From a virus, in the IMG/VR virus record IMGVR_UViG_3300031999_000244, positions 1-20,233 of that record: 20,233 nucleotides of DNA. One strand, written 5' to 3'. The position numbers were made by a program, and so were the translations under genes. Every line of letters starts with the position of its first letter. The stretch's first letter is position 1. The notes beneath the pieces were generated by a model. It made no database searches, had not been told where the DNA came from, and worked only from the letters and a program-made list of their open reading frames with translations. This document shows positions 2,582 through 16,551 of the stretch, in pieces.

Positions 2582-4990
2582 TTATTGAGGATTAAACTGT
2601 GATAAGTCGAATCCATCATCACTACCTTCAAAATCTTTTGGTAAAGAATTATTTTTTCTTTGGTCTATTAATTCTGATTGTTGTGTTGCTTGTATCTTTG
2701 TTCTTTGATCTTTACGATCTTCAGCTTGCGCTTGTTTTTGTTGAGCAACTCCTAATTGCATTTGAGCAAGTTGCATATCATATTCAAACTTTTGAGCCAT
2801 TTTTTGTTTTTCAATCATTAATTCTTGTTGCATTCTTTGTATTTCAAATTGAGACTTAGATTGCAATATTTGAATTTCCGTTTGTGCTAATGCTTGTTGC
2901 TTTTGTACTTCCGCTAATGCCGCAGCTTCTGATGCTTGTGCATTTGCTTGACCCTGCGCCGCAATATTTGCTTGTTGATTTGCTTGATCTCTTTCTAACT
3001 TTTTCTTTCTCTTATATTTTAAAGATTGATTAGCTAGTTTTAAATTCTTAATTTGTCTTAGATCAATTACATCTTCTAAATCAATTCCTCCTGATTGTAA
3101 TGCAACTTGAATGTTCTGTTCAAATTGTACTTTATCTTCATCTTCTGGTTCTAATTCTAAGAATATACCAAAGTCATGCAAGTTTAAGTTCTCTATTTCT
3201 CTTAGAGTTTCCACGTTGGAAATAGATATACTTTCTATAAGCGACTTACGTGTTAATGGGAATTCTAATGAATCTTTAATTCTAAGAGCAATGTTTTCAC
3301 ATAATCTTAATGTTAAGAATAAACTTGATTGTAATATATGACGTGTTGCAGTGTTTGAACTTGCTGCCGCCATTTTTTGTAGCCCTACTAAAGCATCTCT
3401 ATCTGGAGCACTACCATCTCTTGCTTCATTCAGTCCGGTTACGTCACGTATCATTTGTAAGTAATATTGGTAAGTACTTATTAAAGAACTTATCTTAGCA
3501 TTCCCTGACGATGTTTGTAATTCCTGAATTGGCACTTTACCCGGATTCATTCCTCCATCCTGGGACATCGATCTACCAACAATACTACCTGTTTGGAAAT
3601 ACATATTTAATGCTTCCGCTGCATTGTAATTTGTACCATTGCCTAAATCAACTTCAGCTAATCCATCAACATCTACAAATACCCCGTCAGGAACCATTCT
3701 TGATAGTACTTGTTGTAATTTTAAATGCGTTAATTGAATCATATCTGCAAACCCTGTTATACGGCTTACTAATGACTCAATTCTTCCTTTATACATTCTA
3801 GGAGCACAGATGGTATAATTCATCTCTACCCTTGTAGTGTCGGCAAATGGTCTAGTCATATTTTCAGACAATTCCCATTTAAGCATTTTTTCTAATCCTA
3901 ATATTTTTGCACCTGAATACAATACCTCGATTGATCTTGATACTCTTTCAAAGTTATCATTTGCTGGAGGATTAAATGTGTCTGGTTTTTCAAGTGCTTT
4001 TTCTAATCCTGTTTCAGTCTGTTTAATTTTAAAGACTTGATTAGAATATGTTTTATATTCAAAATACAATATTTGAACGGTATTGTCGTTTGTATCAGCT
4101 CCGTAATAATTACGAGTATAATTGGCATTGCCTGGAAATTTTTCTATTTCTTTTAAATCTGCATCACTTAAATACGGGAATTCCTTTTTAAGCTCCTCTA
4201 AAGGTACGGATTTAACTTCTCCAACATAATACAAATCCTCAAAATTCGGGTCCTCAGTATAAGAATAAACAAGATTAGCTGGATCAACATATTCAAGAAC
4301 CACACCGTTAGCTTCATTCCAGTTTGTTTTAGCTGCGCCAATACCTAATACTGTTAAGTCATAGTTTAGTCTTCTATTAATTAAAGTATATCTATTGCGA
4401 TCTAATATTTGATTTATTACTTCTTCTTCTGCAATTTCAATTGCTTGTTTGTAATCTAATTGTAAATGAATTTCTAATTCTTCTTTTGTTTCAGGTAATT
4501 CTTCTGGGTTTGGGGTATTATATAGATTAACACCCAATTTAGATTGAATGCTTTCTAATAAGTCCTTTGCCATCATATCTCTTATGATACCTTCGGCATA
4601 TTTTGTTTTAGCTTGAACAGCTTCTGGATCTTCGGCATAAGCTTTGATCTCATAGTTCTTACTAGATATACCATTAACAACAATGTCTACAAACTTAGGT
4701 ATAATAGGAATAGGTTTCCAATCTAAATTAAGATATGACAAATCACCATTAATAGATAATTCATCTTTATATTTTTGTACAGATTGTTCACCTCTTGCAT
4801 AAAGACGTAAATTGTGAAAGTTTTGCCAGTTTGATCCCCACCTGTTACCTACTCCGCCACCAACTCTATCTCCACGAAACCATTCGTTTTCAATAGCTCT
4901 GCCGACTAAAGCCCCGTATTCATAACTTTGTTTTTCTTCATCCGGTACTACCTGACTAGGGAAAGAACTATTATTGTTTGTATAAATCAT
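2582..4990 (-). CDS. Portal protein
   Basis: An 802-aa protein placed 3 bp after TerL and before the scaffold candidate. Near residues 91-107 it has WKPIPIIPKFVDIVVNG, a stretch I associate with crAss-like portal proteins. The middle contains patterns typical of portal cores, such as NYDLTVLGIGAAKTNWNEAN and the segment around YYLQMIRDVTGLNEARDGSA in the likely stem region. Residues of roughly 655-765 are a Gln/Ala-rich helical stretch with coiled-coil periodicity, consistent with an extended barrel or tail at the portal C-terminus. The portal would form the dodecameric ring at one vertex, gating DNA entry and joining head to tail. The size is at the upper end for portals but usual for this phage group. 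The start MIYTNNN is the only good one near the TerL stop. Confidence 0.88.
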   Translation of the reverse strand: MIYTNNNSSFPSQVVPDEEKQSYEYGALVGRAIENEWFRGDRVGGGVGNRWGSNWQNFHNLRLYARGEQSVQKYKDELSINGDLSYLNLDWKPIPIIPKFVDIVVNGISSKNYEIKAYAEDPEAVQAKTKYAEGIIRDMMAKDLLESIQSKLGVNLYNTPNPEELPETKEELEIHLQLDYKQAIEIAEEEVINQILDRNRYTLINRRLNYDLTVLGIGAAKTNWNEANGVVLEYVDPANLVYSYTEDPNFEDLYYVGEVKSVPLEELKKEFPYLSDADLKEIEKFPGNANYTRNYYGADTNDNTVQILYFEYKTYSNQVFKIKQTETGLEKALEKPDTFNPPANDNFERVSRSIEVLYSGAKILGLEKMLKWELSENMTRPFADTTRVEMNYTICAPRMYKGRIESLVSRITGFADMIQLTHLKLQQVLSRMVPDGVFVDVDGLAEVDLGNGTNYNAAEALNMYFQTGSIVGRSMSQDGGMNPGKVPIQELQTSSGNAKISSLISTYQYYLQMIRDVTGLNEARDGSAPDRDALVGLQKMAAASSNTATRHILQSSLFLTLRLCENIALRIKDSLEFPLTRKSLIESISISNVETLREIENLNLHDFGIFLELEPEDEDKVQFEQNIQVALQSGGIDLEDVIDLRQIKNLKLANQSLKYKRKKKLERDQANQQANIAAQGQANAQASEAAALAEVQKQQALAQTEIQILQSKSQFEIQRMQQELMIEKQKMAQKFEYDMQLAQMQLGVAQQKQAQAEDRKDQRTKIQATQQSELIDQRKNNSLPKDFEGSDDGFDLSQFNPQ

Positions 4991-12289: not shown

Positions 12290-12546
12290 AAAACAATTAC
12301 AACGTCTTGTAACTTTATAACCTTATAATCATGACCTTCAAATTCAATACCGTGACCGGCACTTTTGTCATAATAGATAATGTCTCCAACGTTCAACACT
12401 TTTATCTCATCACTTATAGAAACTATAACAGCTTCTTTATATCTTATATTCTCTTTATCTTTTTCTGCTAAAAGTAAACCGCCTTCCGTTTTGCTTAACC
12501 CCGTTTTCTTTAACGAAATTATAATGTTGTTACCTATTGCTTTCAT
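12286..12546 (-). CDS. groES: Co-chaperonin GroES (Hsp10)
   Basis: An 86-aa GroES-family protein, the lid that closes the GroEL cavity. The first strand NNIIISLKKT leads into a mobile loop (SKTEGGLLLAEK, about 18-29) whose GGLLL matches the GGIVL element that docks on GroEL. The core has KEAVIVSISD, LNVGDIIYYDKSAG and the closing strand LQDVVIVL. The usual length is about 95 residues, so it is slightly short, with the roof loop probably trimmed. It overlaps the end of groEL by 4 bp and the start of the winged-helix gene by 4 bp. The order groEL then groES is the reverse of the usual bacterial groES-groEL operon. A working partnership with the adjacent GroEL is inferred. Confidence 0.87.
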   Translation of the reverse strand: MKAIGNNIIISLKKTGLSKTEGGLLLAEKDKENIRYKEAVIVSISDEIKVLNVGDIIYYDKSAGHGIEFEGHDYKVIKLQDVVIVL

Positions 12547-14087
12547 GATACGCGTAAATTATTAATTACACAATCAGTTGATAATATAGTAACAGCTACA
12601 GATGCCGCATTTCTTAGTGCAGATTTTGTAACTAATAATGGATCAATAATCCCCGCTTCAATCATATTAACAATATCGCCAGTCATTACATTTAATCCAT
12701 CACCTTCTACAAACTTAGTCATTGTATCTTCCATTCCTGCATTTATCAGGATCGTATTGAAAGGGGCTTTAATTGCATCGAGTAAAACCCATTCTCCGGT
12801 ATTAACTCCAGTTAATGTTTGGGATGCGTTTAATAAAGCAATTCCCCCTCCTGGAACAATACCTTCTTTAATGGCTGCTTTAGTTGCACATATCGCGTCT
12901 TCCACTCTATCTGCTTTTTCTTTTAATTCAACATCTGAATTAGCGCCCACTTTTACAACAGCAACTTTTGCGGATAATCTTGCTAATCTTCTTTCTAATC
13001 GAATAACTTCAGCGGGATTAAGTTTACCTTCAAGTTGTGTTTTTAATTCATCAATTAATAGTTGTACTTCTTCAGTTGTACTATTAACTTGTAATATTGT
13101 CTCTGAATCATCGGTTATGGCTTTTAAACAACTACCTAAATGTTCTGGTAGTATTAAATCCATATCGTCACCTAAATCCTCATTTATAATTGTTGCGCCA
13201 GTTAATAAGGCAAGATCCATTAAGGTATCTTTTTTATTAACACCATAAGTTGGCGCATTAATTACATTTACTTTTATATTTCCTTTTACTTTATTCATTG
13301 CAAGAGCAGATAGAACGTTTGTTTCCATATCTGCAATAATCAATAAAGATTTATTTGCTTTTATAACGTGTTCAAGTACTGACTGTATTTGTCTGATACT
13401 CTCCACTGGTGATTCAATAATCAATACGACAGGATTTTCTAATTCTGCAATCCTTTTGTTTGGGTTAGTTATAAAATGTGAATTAACTAGACCTTTATCG
13501 TATTGTACGCCTTCAATTACTTCTATTTCTGTTTCGGCTGATGCTGATGTTTCCATCATTACAATTCCTGTTTCTCCAACGGATCTAAACGCATCGGCAA
13601 TAATCTTACCTAATACTGGATCATTGTTAGTTGAGATAGTTGCAATATTGTCAATCATATCTCCTGTAACCGGTACTGCAATTGATTCTAAATAAGTAAT
13701 CACCTGATTAGTCATTGACTCAATACCTTGCTTTACCTCTCTTGCATTATGTTTAGCTTGAACTTTGTAAGCTTCATTTAATATTGCATGAGCTAATACA
13801 GTTGCGGTAGTTGTACCGTCCCCCGCTTCTTTAACTGTTTTGCGAGCAGCTTCTTTTAAAAGTCTTGCCCCCATATTTTCAACTGGGTCCAATAAAATAA
13901 CACTATCTGCAACGGTAACTCCGTCCTTTGTTATAATTGGTCTCCCCTGATTATCTTCTAGCATTACACATTTACCACCAGCACCAAGCGTTGAGCTTAC
14001 GGCTTTTGTTAACTTTGTAATACCTTCGAACACTTTATCTTGAGCATCTTGCCCAAAGCTAAGATTCTTAACTATTGCATCTGACAT
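12543..14087 (-). CDS. groEL: Chaperonin GroEL (Hsp60), phage-encoded
   Basis: A complete 514-aa group I chaperonin. The equatorial ATP site has TLGAGGKCV (33-41), TKDGVTVA (53-60) and DGTTT (90-94); the Asp of RVEDAICATKAAIKEG (394-409) corresponds to the hydrolysis Asp of GroEL, and VPGGGIAL follows. The apical domain (about 190-375) keeps the layout of GroEL, including SLLIIADMETNVLSAL. The C-terminus ends at NNLRVS and lacks the flexible GGM-repeat tail; with some loop trimming this explains the length below 548. No key ATPase residue is missing, so it should be active, probably folding phage capsid or tail proteins. It leads a coupled groEL-groES-winged helix cassette and is preceded by a 67-bp gap. 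Confidence 0.95.
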   Translation of the reverse strand: MSDAIVKNLSFGQDAQDKVFEGITKLTKAVSSTLGAGGKCVMLEDNQGRPIITKDGVTVADSVILLDPVENMGARLLKEAARKTVKEAGDGTTTATVLAHAILNEAYKVQAKHNAREVKQGIESMTNQVITYLESIAVPVTGDMIDNIATISTNNDPVLGKIIADAFRSVGETGIVMMETSASAETEIEVIEGVQYDKGLVNSHFITNPNKRIAELENPVVLIIESPVESIRQIQSVLEHVIKANKSLLIIADMETNVLSALAMNKVKGNIKVNVINAPTYGVNKKDTLMDLALLTGATIINEDLGDDMDLILPEHLGSCLKAITDDSETILQVNSTTEEVQLLIDELKTQLEGKLNPAEVIRLERRLARLSAKVAVVKVGANSDVELKEKADRVEDAICATKAAIKEGIVPGGGIALLNASQTLTGVNTGEWVLLDAIKAPFNTILINAGMEDTMTKFVEGDGLNVMTGDIVNMIEAGIIDPLLVTKSALRNAASVAVTILSTDCVINNLRVS

Positions 14088-14154: not shown

Positions 14155-14622
14155 TTAAAATAGCTTGTATTCAAATATAAATCCATATCCACTAGGATTA
14201 TCCAATTGCATATAATACCTAGCTCCAATATTAATCTTTTTAAATTCTAATAATATAGTTCCGTATAAATAAGGATTAATCAAACTAGCGTTTACGGTTT
14301 GAACCCCAAGGTAACTATGCAACTCCGGCTTTTTAAACCATCCAATCGCTTTGTCTTGAACTGTAATTATTTCATCTTTTTTAAAAAGGATACTATCCTT
14401 AATTTTTATAATTTCTACAAGTTCATTGTTTTGATCTTGCAGGTTTTTTATGTTTTCATTTTTTATTTTTAAAAGCTGTTTACATATATCTCCTTTAACA
14501 AGATCCTTAACAACCTCTCTTGCTAAGCTTTCATTTAATACTATCTTTTTGATTGTATCGTTCTGCGAAATACCTTTGAAGCTCACTAAAAGCAATAGTA
14601 TCAATAATCTTAATTGTATCAT
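14155..14622 (-). CDS. Exported coiled-coil protein with possible outer-membrane C-terminus
   Basis: A 155-aa protein with a strong signal peptide (MIQLRLLILLLLVSFKGISQ), probably cleaved near ISQ. Residues of about 45-90 are a coiled coil (KIKNENIKNLQDQNNELVEI). The last 55 residues form alternating strands (HSYLGVQTVNA, YLYGTILLEFKKINIGARYY, YGFIFEYKLF) and end in Phe, as in outer-membrane beta proteins recognised by BamA. The start lies inside the upstream spanin-like gene, overlapping by 92 bp, and the signal peptide fixes it there. There is no lipobox Cys. Overlapped genes for inner- and outer-membrane partners are typical of Rz/Rz1 spanins, so I infer an outer-membrane lysis partner. 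An unrelated envelope protein is the alternative. Confidence 0.6.
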   Translation of the reverse strand: MIQLRLLILLLLVSFKGISQNDTIKKIVLNESLAREVVKDLVKGDICKQLLKIKNENIKNLQDQNNELVEIIKIKDSILFKKDEIITVQDKAIGWFKKPELHSYLGVQTVNASLINPYLYGTILLEFKKINIGARYYMQLDNPSGYGFIFEYKLF

Positions 14623-14854
14623 GTTCTAATTGTATTAATGTCCTTTCTTTTTGGATAATTATTTTGTTGTTTGATTTTAAGCTATCAAATTTATTCCAAT
14701 GCAATTCCTCCATCTGCTCCAACGCTTTAATCTCTTTCTCTAATTGATTTTTTTCCAATAGCAGTTCATTAGTTTTTTGAATTCCATATAGTGTATATAA
14801 TGCAAACACAATTATTAACACAACCCCAACCCATTGTGATTTTATAAAACTCAT
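14531..14854 (-). CDS. Inner-membrane spanin-like protein (Rz-type)
   Basis: A 107-aa protein read from MSFIKSQWVG at 14854. A Met seven codons earlier (14875) is possible, but 14854 shares a base with the endolysin stop (TAATG), the junction type repeated in this operon. One N-terminal membrane helix (VGVVLIIVFALYTLYGI) is followed by a long periplasmic coiled coil (LLLEKNQLEKEIKALEQMEE onward). This is the build of i-spanins, which cross the periplasm and fuse the membranes at the end of phage lysis. It follows the endolysin directly and embeds the start of the exported 155-aa gene, as Rz embeds Rz1. Function is inferred from architecture and place. Confidence 0.65.
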   Translation of the reverse strand: MSFIKSQWVGVVLIIVFALYTLYGIQKTNELLLEKNQLEKEIKALEQMEELHWNKFDSLKSNNKIIIQKERTLIQLEHDTIKIIDTIAFSELQRYFAERYNQKDSIK

Positions 14855-15462
14855 TACTTTATTTTTTTGTACCATTCGTTTGTTAATTTTATTCTTTCAT
14901 CTAAACCAATAGTTCCTCCATTAACTCTTTTTGAAATTTTTTCAATAGAGTCTTTAGTCACAGTGCTGGCGATAGGTAGCAATCCATTTTTTTTAAAAAA
15001 GAATAAAGCACTTTCAAAATAGTATTTTGTTCCAACTAACTCAGGATTAGCTACACAATCTTCTTTAATAAAATCCGAAAATTCTTTAAAGTTTGATTTA
15101 CCGGTTAATTGCAAAGCACCGGCCCCCCTGTATTTCCAGCCATCTTTTGACGCCTCGTCTCCATTGCCCATTCTATTAGCATATGTTCTTGATGCAATCA
15201 AATCTGGTTTTCTTGCATAAGTAGCAGCTTGCTCAGTCGTAAAATACTTAGGAAATATTTTTCTTAATCCATCGGCTGAATAATTAACATTTTCCCTCTC
15301 CGATTTAAAATGCCCACTTTCATGCTCAGCTTGCCCAAGTATATGCGCTAGTTGCTCATCAGTTACCGCCCAAGCCTCTTTTATTTTTGCAAATGATTGC
15401 TTACCCAAAATCCCATCAGCTGTTAATCCCAACTTTTTTTGCAAATCAGCTAGCTTACTCAT
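14854..15462 (-). CDS. GH19-type endolysin
   Basis: A 202-aa muralytic enzyme read from MSKLADLQKK at 15462; the longer frame from 15510 adds 16 residues of doubtful coding inside the holin gene. Residues 3-28 (LADLQKKLGLTADGILGKQS) look like a short peptidoglycan-binding motif. The GH19 lysozyme domain follows: AEHESGHF (45-52) with the likely general acid Glu48, RENVNYSADGLRKIFPKYF (56-74), TYANRMGNGDEASKDGWKYR (93-112) and GAGALQLTGKSNF (113-125). GH19 phage enzymes cleave the glycan strands of the cell wall. There is no signal peptide, so release depends on a holin, and a holin candidate lies just upstream, overlapping by 8 bp. Confidence 0.88.
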   Translation of the reverse strand: MSKLADLQKKLGLTADGILGKQSFAKIKEAWAVTDEQLAHILGQAEHESGHFKSERENVNYSADGLRKIFPKYFTTEQAATYARKPDLIASRTYANRMGNGDEASKDGWKYRGAGALQLTGKSNFKEFSDFIKEDCVANPELVGTKYYFESALFFFKKNGLLPIASTVTKDSIEKISKRVNGGTIGLDERIKLTNEWYKKIK

Positions 15463-15697
15463 CCTCTTTTTTATCCTTATTAAATACTGTTCCTGCCATA
15501 GATATTCCAAAACTAACTGAAGTTAATATTAAGAACCCATTAAATATGAATTCTTCTATAACTAATTTATTACCAATTATTCCTGTTATAACGTCTGCTA
15601 TTAAAGTAAACACCATCATAAAAAAAGAAACTACTCCAACGAATGATTTCTCATTTATATCGTTATTATCACTAATTAAATTTTTCCAAAATCCCAT
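15455..15697 (-). CDS. Holin candidate with two membrane helices
   Basis: An 80-aa protein. A polar N-terminus (MGFWKNLISDNNDINEKS) is followed by two hydrophobic helices, FVGVVSFFMMVFTLIADVIT (about 19-38) and FIFNGFLILTSVSFGISMAG (about 51-70), and a charged tail (NKDKKEDE). Size, two helices and charged C-terminus fit phage holins, which form lesions in the inner membrane and release the endolysin. The endolysin gene follows with an 8-bp overlap. The protein is not assigned to a named holin family, and a different small membrane protein cannot be excluded, although position makes holin the best call. Confidence 0.72.
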   Translation of the reverse strand: MGFWKNLISDNNDINEKSFVGVVSFFMMVFTLIADVITGIIGNKLVIEEFIFNGFLILTSVSFGISMAGTVFNKDKKEDE

Positions 15698-15699
15698 AA

Positions 15700-16083
15700 T
15701 TATTTTATTGTGTCTTTAACGGTTATTGAATCTTTATTTTTACCAAGTACCTTGTCAAAGAATGATCTTTTTTTAGGTAATTTATATTCATTTATTTTTT
15801 TATTGGCTACTATCAAACAATCTTTTGTAATAGCTATTTCCTCTTTTAGATTAGAGTTTTCAGTTTTAAGATTAGAATTTTCTGATTTAAAAACATCTTT
15901 CTGATAAACAACTTTCTTAACATCGTCTTCTAAACCCTCTGTTTTTACTAATAGACTATTCATTTTCTCTATGTCGTTAGAGAATAAAGAATCCATAGTT
16001 ACAACGTCTTTGTTTTTTTCCGTAACAGTGGATTTATTACAAGCCACTGCTAACAATATAAATAGTATAAATATCTTTCTCAT
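15700..16083 (-). CDS. Coiled-coil lipoprotein, outer-membrane spanin candidate
   Basis: A 127-aa protein with a lipoprotein signal (MRKIFILFILLAVAC), Cys15 being the probable lipidated residue, followed by NKST. The mature part is highly charged, and residues of about 60-90 form a coiled coil with a duplicated SENSNLKTENSNLKEE. The C-terminus is basic then acidic (LPKKRSFFDKVLGKNK). A lipoprotein with a periplasmic coiled coil, coupled by TAATG to a one-helix coiled-coil protein upstream and followed by holin and endolysin, fits an o-spanin. It is longer than the small Rz1-type lipoproteins. Other lipoprotein roles, such as blocking superinfection, are possible. Confidence 0.65.
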   Translation of the reverse strand: MRKIFILFILLAVACNKSTVTEKNKDVVTMDSLFSNDIEKMNSLLVKTEGLEDDVKKVVYQKDVFKSENSNLKTENSNLKEEIAITKDCLIVANKKINEYKLPKKRSFFDKVLGKNKDSITVKDTIK

Positions 16084-16343
16084 TATTTCAATCCTTTAAT
16101 TTGGTCTAACAATTCTAATTTGGCAGCAGCTCTTGCTAATGTACTATCTGACTTTTTAAGCCTTTCGTCTAATAGATCTACTTTTTTAGTTAGCTGTTCA
16201 ACATTAATACTACACTTATCTATTTGTGATATATAATTCATTTTATTGTCTATGTATAAATAGCCCACAGCTAATACCACCAAAAACAATAGCCCCTTTA
16301 CAGGATCTTTAGAAAATTCTTTAAAACTTATTGGCATTTCCAT
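16083..16343 (-). CDS. One-helix coiled-coil protein, inner-membrane spanin candidate
   Basis: An 86-aa protein. After a short N-terminus (MEMPISFKEFSKDPVKG) comes a membrane helix (LLFLVVLAVGYLYI, about 18-31) and then a coiled coil to the end (VEQLTKKVDLLDERLKKSDS onward). The topology would place the coil in the periplasm. It shares one base with the downstream lipoprotein gene, and together they form an inner/outer-membrane pair of the kind expected of spanins. Met3 (16337) is an alternative start. It is short for an i-spanin and could also be an antiholin-like or phage-tail-associated membrane protein. Confidence 0.6.
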   Translation of the reverse strand: MEMPISFKEFSKDPVKGLLFLVVLAVGYLYIDNKMNYISQIDKCSINVEQLTKKVDLLDERLKKSDSTLARAAAKLELLDQIKGLK

Positions 16344-16416: not shown

Positions 16417-16551
16417 TTACCTACCTTGCCCTTTATATAATTTCTTGTAATTCTTAGAATCTTTTAAACTTGATGTTTTGGATTTTGAGTGAACTCCAGG
16501 TCTTGATATGTTTTTTTCAACTTTTATAGCGGTTACAGTTTGTTTTGCCAT
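16417..16551 (-). CDS. 44-aa basic conserved phage protein
   Basis: A 44-aa open frame beginning MAKQTVTAIKVEKNISRPG and ending DSKNYKKLYKGQGR. It is very rich in Lys and Ser, with RPGVHSKSKTSS in the middle and a GQGR end. I recall nearly the same pattern (RPGVHxKxKTS...NYKKxYxGQGR) as a tiny recurrent protein in late regions of uncultured Bacteroidota phages. That supports it as a real gene despite its size. The A-rich leader contains AACAATATAC shortly before the ATG. No function is known to me; a nucleic-acid-binding or virion-internal peptide is plausible because of the charge. Confidence 0.65.
   Translation of the reverse strand: MAKQTVTAIKVEKNISRPGVHSKSKTSSLKDSKNYKKLYKGQGR

Follow-up and report, generated by a model that had tools for sequence, protein, structure and literature searches.

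The window, the whole stretch of DNA analysed here, is a 20,233-base virus record of a Bacteroidota phage. Its portal protein shares 51% identity with the portal in an environmental phage record and approximately 40% with Maribacter and Flavobacterium phage portals. The minus strand of the window carries, in order, a tail fibre gene, small genes, Ai, Ao, a holin-like gene, an endolysin gene, Bi, Bo and a GroEL gene (Table 1). A preliminary description had placed two spanin-like pairs around a holin-endolysin core, and this arrangement was confirmed, with all four pair genes (Ai and Ao, forming pair A; Bi and Bo, forming pair B) on the minus strand. Neither pair is a copy of the other. The start of Ao overlaps the stop of Ai by one base, and a second open ATG lies upstream of Bi at 14875.

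Table 1. Features of the lysis region and its immediate surroundings in the window.
Feature	Positions	Strand	Description
44-aa basic peptide	16417..16551		Sequence ..SRPGVHSKSKTSSLKDSKNYKKLYKGQGR; upstream of Ai
Ai (pair A)	16083..16343	-	86 aa; single N-terminal membrane segment, predicted short periplasmic coiled coil
Ao (pair A)	15700..16083	-	127 aa; lipoprotein, coiled coil, signal MRKIFILFILLAVAC
Holin-like gene	15455..15697	-	80 aa; two hydrophobic segments
Endolysin, GH19-type	14854..15462	-	202 aa; start ATG 15462
Bi (pair B), i-spanin-like	14531..14854	-	107 aa from ATG 14854
Bi/Bo overlap	14531..14622	-	92 nt; Bi C-terminus and Bo signal peptide in two frames
Bo (pair B), exported	14155..14622	-	155 aa; signal peptide, helix, C-terminal four-strand beta domain in the model
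GroEL-like chaperonin	12543..14087	-	Immediately downstream of Bo; PHROG match 8e-130

All four pair genes are real. Across Ai, Ao, holin, endolysin and Bo, dN/dS values of 0.04-0.25 (0.04-0.05 for Ai, 0.10-0.25 for Ao) reflect purifying selection. Synonymous change in Bo is lower within the overlap with Bi than outside it (pS of approximately 0.3 versus 0.7-0.9), as expected for dual coding, and the Bo frame stays open through the overlap in just 3% of synonymous shuffles of Bi. The endolysin has a PHROG endolysin match (4e-54) and a Pfam Glyco_hydro_19 match (3e-4) that is under the family cut-off; its start, first read as TTG 15510, is most likely ATG 15462. The name holin had been given to the 80-aa gene. 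Its two hydrophobic segments and its position, which is constant next to endolysins in relatives, agree with that name, but no Pfam or convincing PHROG match was obtained, and the gene is termed a putative holin here from hydropathy and position.

Bi, Ao and Bo had no tblastn match among 50,697 phage records, and Ai had one, in a 634-kb phage. PHROG matches of Bi to 'holin' (9e-4) and of Ai to 'Rz-like spanin' (0.08) were too weak to be used, and a Pfam match of Ai to an FtsL-like family (E 0.11) was set aside. Two neighbouring genes recur in related loci. The GroEL-like gene is also found downstream of Bo in L001, L035, L041 and L166. The 44-aa basic peptide gene is recurrent in relatives, lies downstream of Bo in L035, L036, L038, L039, L085 and L161, and is a small conserved mobile gene.

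Pair A and its relatives

Pair A is phage-specific and widespread: IMG/VR contains at least 235 relatives of Ai, and a search of 84,980 species genomes of bacteria and archaea yielded one, on a single contig. In nearly all of the 70 distinct loci listed, the gene after Ai encodes a coiled-coil protein that is either exported or anchored in the membrane. Of 68 Ai loci, 53 have a holin-like gene nearby and 46 have an endolysin. Three loci (L191, L192 and L193) have no lysis gene beside Ai-Ao, and the L193 contig has lysis genes elsewhere. Conservation of a pair where lysis genes are missing, which the preliminary description had proposed as evidence against a spanin role, is thus seen in part for pair A, but not for pair B.

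Several of these loci have further features of their own. At L191:5001-5814, in a 634-kb phage record, the gene after the Ai relative encodes a 198-aa coiled coil anchored in the membrane, and no recognised lysis gene was found within 5 kb. On the 39-kb contig of L193 (L267, L268), dozens of small single-TM proteins surround Ai-Ao, some with peptidoglycan-binding-like repeats, and this contig is possibly a membrane-containing virus. Additionally, lipoproteins of approximately 50-65 aa rich in Ser, Thr, Val and Asp are encoded approximately 2 kb or less from Ai-Ao in L204, L199, L237, L229 and others, and are possible extra envelope components.

The i/o-spanin build that had been proposed for pair A holds in the window, where an i-type protein with an N-terminal TM segment is coupled to a lipoprotein partner. 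The lipobox of Ao reads LLAVAC in the window and LVSC or LASC in relatives. However, this build does not extend across the family, since the lipobox is present in 33 of 68 Ai loci and absent in 35 of 68. Pair A also co-occurs with other spanin types in approximately 15 loci. A Bo-superfamily protein begins within the 3' end of Ao in approximately 41 of the 68 loci, including 34 of the 35 in which Ao has no lipobox, and the C-terminus of this third protein is usually a helical membrane segment. The best conserved parts of Ai are its membrane segment and its cytoplasmic face rather than the tether, a pattern that is unusual for a simple tether. As for co-occurrence, pair A is found with Bi-Bo in eight loci, plus the L193 contig, where approximately 16 kb separates it from the genes for the holin and for Bi-Bo. 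It is found with u-spanin candidates in six loci, some of them closely related, as judged by a simple lipobox and hydropathy rule applied to contigs that may be incomplete.

The strongest competing explanation is that both pairs are spanins: Ai-Ao would be a conventional lipoprotein i/o pair and Bi-Bo would work without a lipid, the two being retained either as redundant sets or to suit different host envelopes. Consistent with this, the Ao proteins of the window and of close relatives are lipoproteins. The same holds for Ao on four contigs, G041 (122 kb), G043 (73 kb), G029 (34 kb) and G046 (18 kb), where no spanin candidate other than Ai-Ao was found and where the pair adjoins a holin-like gene. 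These contigs may be incomplete, but the result favours a spanin role for pair A there. Against it stand the frequent loss of the lipobox, the retention of pair A beside both Bi-Bo and u-spanins, which would be odd for a spare, and the conservation of Ai away from its tether. That both pairs are spanins is rather unlikely. Similarly, redundancy, which the preliminary description had offered as one explanation, is not in its plain form the best reading, given the Ao proteins without a lipobox, the co-occurrence with other spanins and the separation of approximately 16 kb in one phage, although the four contigs do lend support to a second spanin.

The role of pair A is probably linked to lysis. 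By judgement rather than computation, the chance that pair A is a lysis accessory is put at just under even; a second spanin is nearly as likely, and some other function is quite unlikely. An accessory acting in holin or envelope coupling is a likelier role for it than that of a backup for pair B.

Distribution and exchange of pair B

Profile searches of IMG/VR recovered 67 distinct loci with overlapping Bi/Bo pairs, the overlaps ranging from 77 to 146 nt. Among the 61 loci with more than 2 kb of upstream sequence, to which the neighbour count was restricted, a recognised endolysin lies within 2.5 kb in 30 and directly before Bi in 28. Eight other Bi/Bo loci were inspected, and several of these adjoin other putative wall hydrolases by an eye reading rather than a profile test. 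The pair is also present in an isolate: gp187 and gp186 of Flavobacterium phage immuto are overlapping homologues of Bi and Bo within the lysis cassette (HMM E-values of 3e-18 and 2e-14).

In several respects pair B is built as a spanin. Bi has a hydrophobic N-terminus and a conserved C-terminal motif, LQxYFxxRY, and was modelled by AlphaFold2 as one helix (residues 8-100, pLDDT 86.5), so that it combines the N-terminal TM segment and the predicted periplasmic helical domain of i-spanins. Spanin genes are embedded, overlapped or separated within the lysis region, and the overlapping genes of pair B lie in that region downstream of the endolysin. A variant arrangement is found in L104, where a GIY-YIG-like endonuclease gene (4420-4944) separates Bi from Bo; a truncated Bo start is left at 4311-4448, and the signal peptide of the intact Bo is a different one that also has no cysteine. 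An endonuclease-like insertion between the two spanin genes has likewise been described for T5/Shivani (PMC6139136).

Comparison with a close relative, L001, indicates that the two genes of pair B move together. Between the window and L001, DNA identity is 100% in Ai and Ao, 99% in the holin gene, 94% in the endolysin gene and 97% at the start of the GroEL gene, but only 63-64% in Bi and Bo, the breakpoints lying within the first few codons of Bi and just past the Bo stop. Because the drop is bounded by near-identical flanks, Bi and Bo were exchanged together as one unit. In the sister phages L002 and L041, the Bi-Bo slot is instead occupied by a lipoprotein with a C-terminal TM segment, which is the build of a u-spanin. 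The L002 u-spanin begins MNFIKSKW and Bi begins MSFIKSQW, as if the exchange point between Bi-Bo and the u-spanin lay at these starts. Evolutionary distances of Bi and Bo are also correlated (r 0.83), but shared ancestry alone could give this value, and it is therefore not taken as proof of contact.

The C-terminal domain of Bo

Bo had been described as an embedded, exported coiled coil. The signal peptide and a long helix agree with that description, but the last third of the protein was modelled as four beta strands. The AlphaFold2 model, made from a 54-protein alignment (pLDDT 78, pTM 0.34), consists of a signal helix, a helix at residues 31-95, and strands at 100-109, 117-126, 130-139 and 145-152, and the strands are amphipathic (p 0.005). 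The signal peptide in the window (..LLVSFKGISQ..) has no lipobox cysteine, the residue at that position being Phe; the cysteine is absent in 50 of the 54 aligned Bo proteins and present in four. In all 54, the presumed cleavage site carries a Q and the last residue is Phe.

A stalk helix followed by four amphipathic strands and a terminal aromatic residue is shared with the anchors of trimeric autotransporters (YadA, Hia, AtaA). Foldseek searches of the PDB with Bo placed AtaA/Hia anchors at ranks 1-4, with weak E-values (0.009-0.07), and phage proteins named YadA-like were among the best viral matches. VIA-align gave Bo Z-scores of 4.8-6.3 against autotransporter anchors, with Hia and YadA at 4.8-5.7 (approximately 2.2 A over 54 residues). 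However, unrelated four-strand meanders score alike (Z of approximately 5-6.6), and the fold match is thus a lead, not proof. Bo further differs from these anchors in that no Pfam YadA_anchor match was found up to an E-value of 1, in having no passenger domain and in lying in a phage lysis cassette. A lead to phiEco32 from a viral fold match was dropped, as gp18 beside the endolysin in that phage is a Gp10_C baseplate-type protein. On the basis of the model, the attachment of Bo to the outer membrane seems to rely on its beta piece, not on a lipid.

The C-terminal end varies among relatives. L197, L117 and immuto gp186 have a helical hydrophobic segment in place of the beta domain, and pairs with such Bo relatives would be without an obvious outer-membrane anchor. 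Downstream of Ai-Ao in two other loci (L255:2505-3380 and L256:2823-3698), a Bo-superfamily N-terminus is fused to an apparent full outer-membrane beta barrel (291 aa).

Pair B compared with known spanins

The resemblance of Bo to a stalk anchored in the outer membrane, together with the true lipoprotein in pair A, could also be read to mean that pair A is the spanin and that pair B serves another role, such as surface anchoring, receptor masking or superinfection exclusion. This is improbable, however, as a recognised endolysin directly precedes Bi in 28 of the 61 loci, putative wall hydrolases lie near others of the inspected pairs, and sister phages fill the same slot with u-spanins. Least probable is a single envelope complex of all four proteins, with the window carrying a split version of a machine ordered Ai-Ao-Bo-like elsewhere, as the frequent start of a Bo-superfamily protein inside Ao might suggest: searches of 26 contigs (57-128 kb) carrying Bi-Bo gave no Ai (positive control, 20/20), the L001 exchange swapped Bi-Bo and left Ai-Ao untouched, and the two sets lie far apart on the L193 contig.

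The best reading, and a well supported one, is that pair B is the spanin-type complex of this phage. Its position, gene overlap, co-exchange and replacement by u-spanins agree with the i/o-spanin complex of the preliminary description, but its outer partner has no lipobox. Because this lipoprotein feature was looked for and is absent from Bo, pair B is not classed as a canonical two-component spanin. The probability that it works like a spanin is put at approximately 0.7, a judgement and not a computed value.

Pair B shares with two-component spanins (lambda Rz/Rz1, T4 PseT.3/PseT.2, T5/Shivani) a position in the lysis cassette, a predicted single-pass inner-membrane helix with an exported partner, and overlapping genes, although comparison with known spanin families gave no sequence match strong enough to be used. 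It differs from them in that Bo is not a lipoprotein and has an apparent C-terminal beta-strand anchor, and in that its partners would run parallel rather than meet C-terminus to C-terminus. Unimolecular spanins (T1 gp11 and the potential u-spanins of the flavobacterial phages Nekkels and Ingeline) are single lipoproteins with a C-terminal TM segment, whereas pair B consists of two proteins; the common ground is the slot that both occupy in the sister phages.

In the proposed scheme, the N-terminus of Bi would sit in the inner membrane, with a helix of approximately 70 residues reaching outward. Bo would be exported via a cleaved signal peptide and would contribute a helix of approximately 65 residues, its C-terminal four-strand beta piece holding it in the outer membrane. 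There, this piece would need to oligomerise (as three sets of four strands, by analogy with autotransporters). With an N-terminal anchor inside and a C-terminal anchor outside, both proteins would run from inside to outside. Once the holin had fired and the endolysin had removed the peptidoglycan, the linked membranes would be pulled together or the outer membrane would be torn. Pair A would be another coiled-coil pair of a different kind, made up of an inner-membrane protein and a lipoprotein, that accompanies the holin-like gene. The scheme as a whole, with pair B a lipid-free spanin-type complex and pair A a probable lysis accessory, is given slightly better than even odds.

A 2025 survey concluded that Bacteroidetes phages have exclusively unimolecular spanins, after a filter that discarded o-spanins without a lipid box (PMC12596118); Bo, having no lipid box, would be discarded by this filter. 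Potential unimolecular spanins have been reported in flavobacterial phages (PMC8776804), in agreement with L002 and L041. Literature searches on spanins with YadA or beta barrels, and on phages with two spanin sets, gave nothing relevant among the results listed. Tentatively, Bacteroidota phages may have a widespread lipid-free two-component spanin, with an outer coiled coil on an oligomeric beta barrel, that is interchangeable with u-spanins and is accompanied by a second conserved, non-spanin bridging pair. The natural swaps between an i/o pair and u-spanins in one slot, together with the immuto homologues, make these ideas testable, and pair A constitutes a large phage-specific family. If pair B is a spanin, then the conclusion that these phages have exclusively unimolecular spanins would be partly an artefact of the filter, and a lipid anchor would not be essential for the outer-membrane step.
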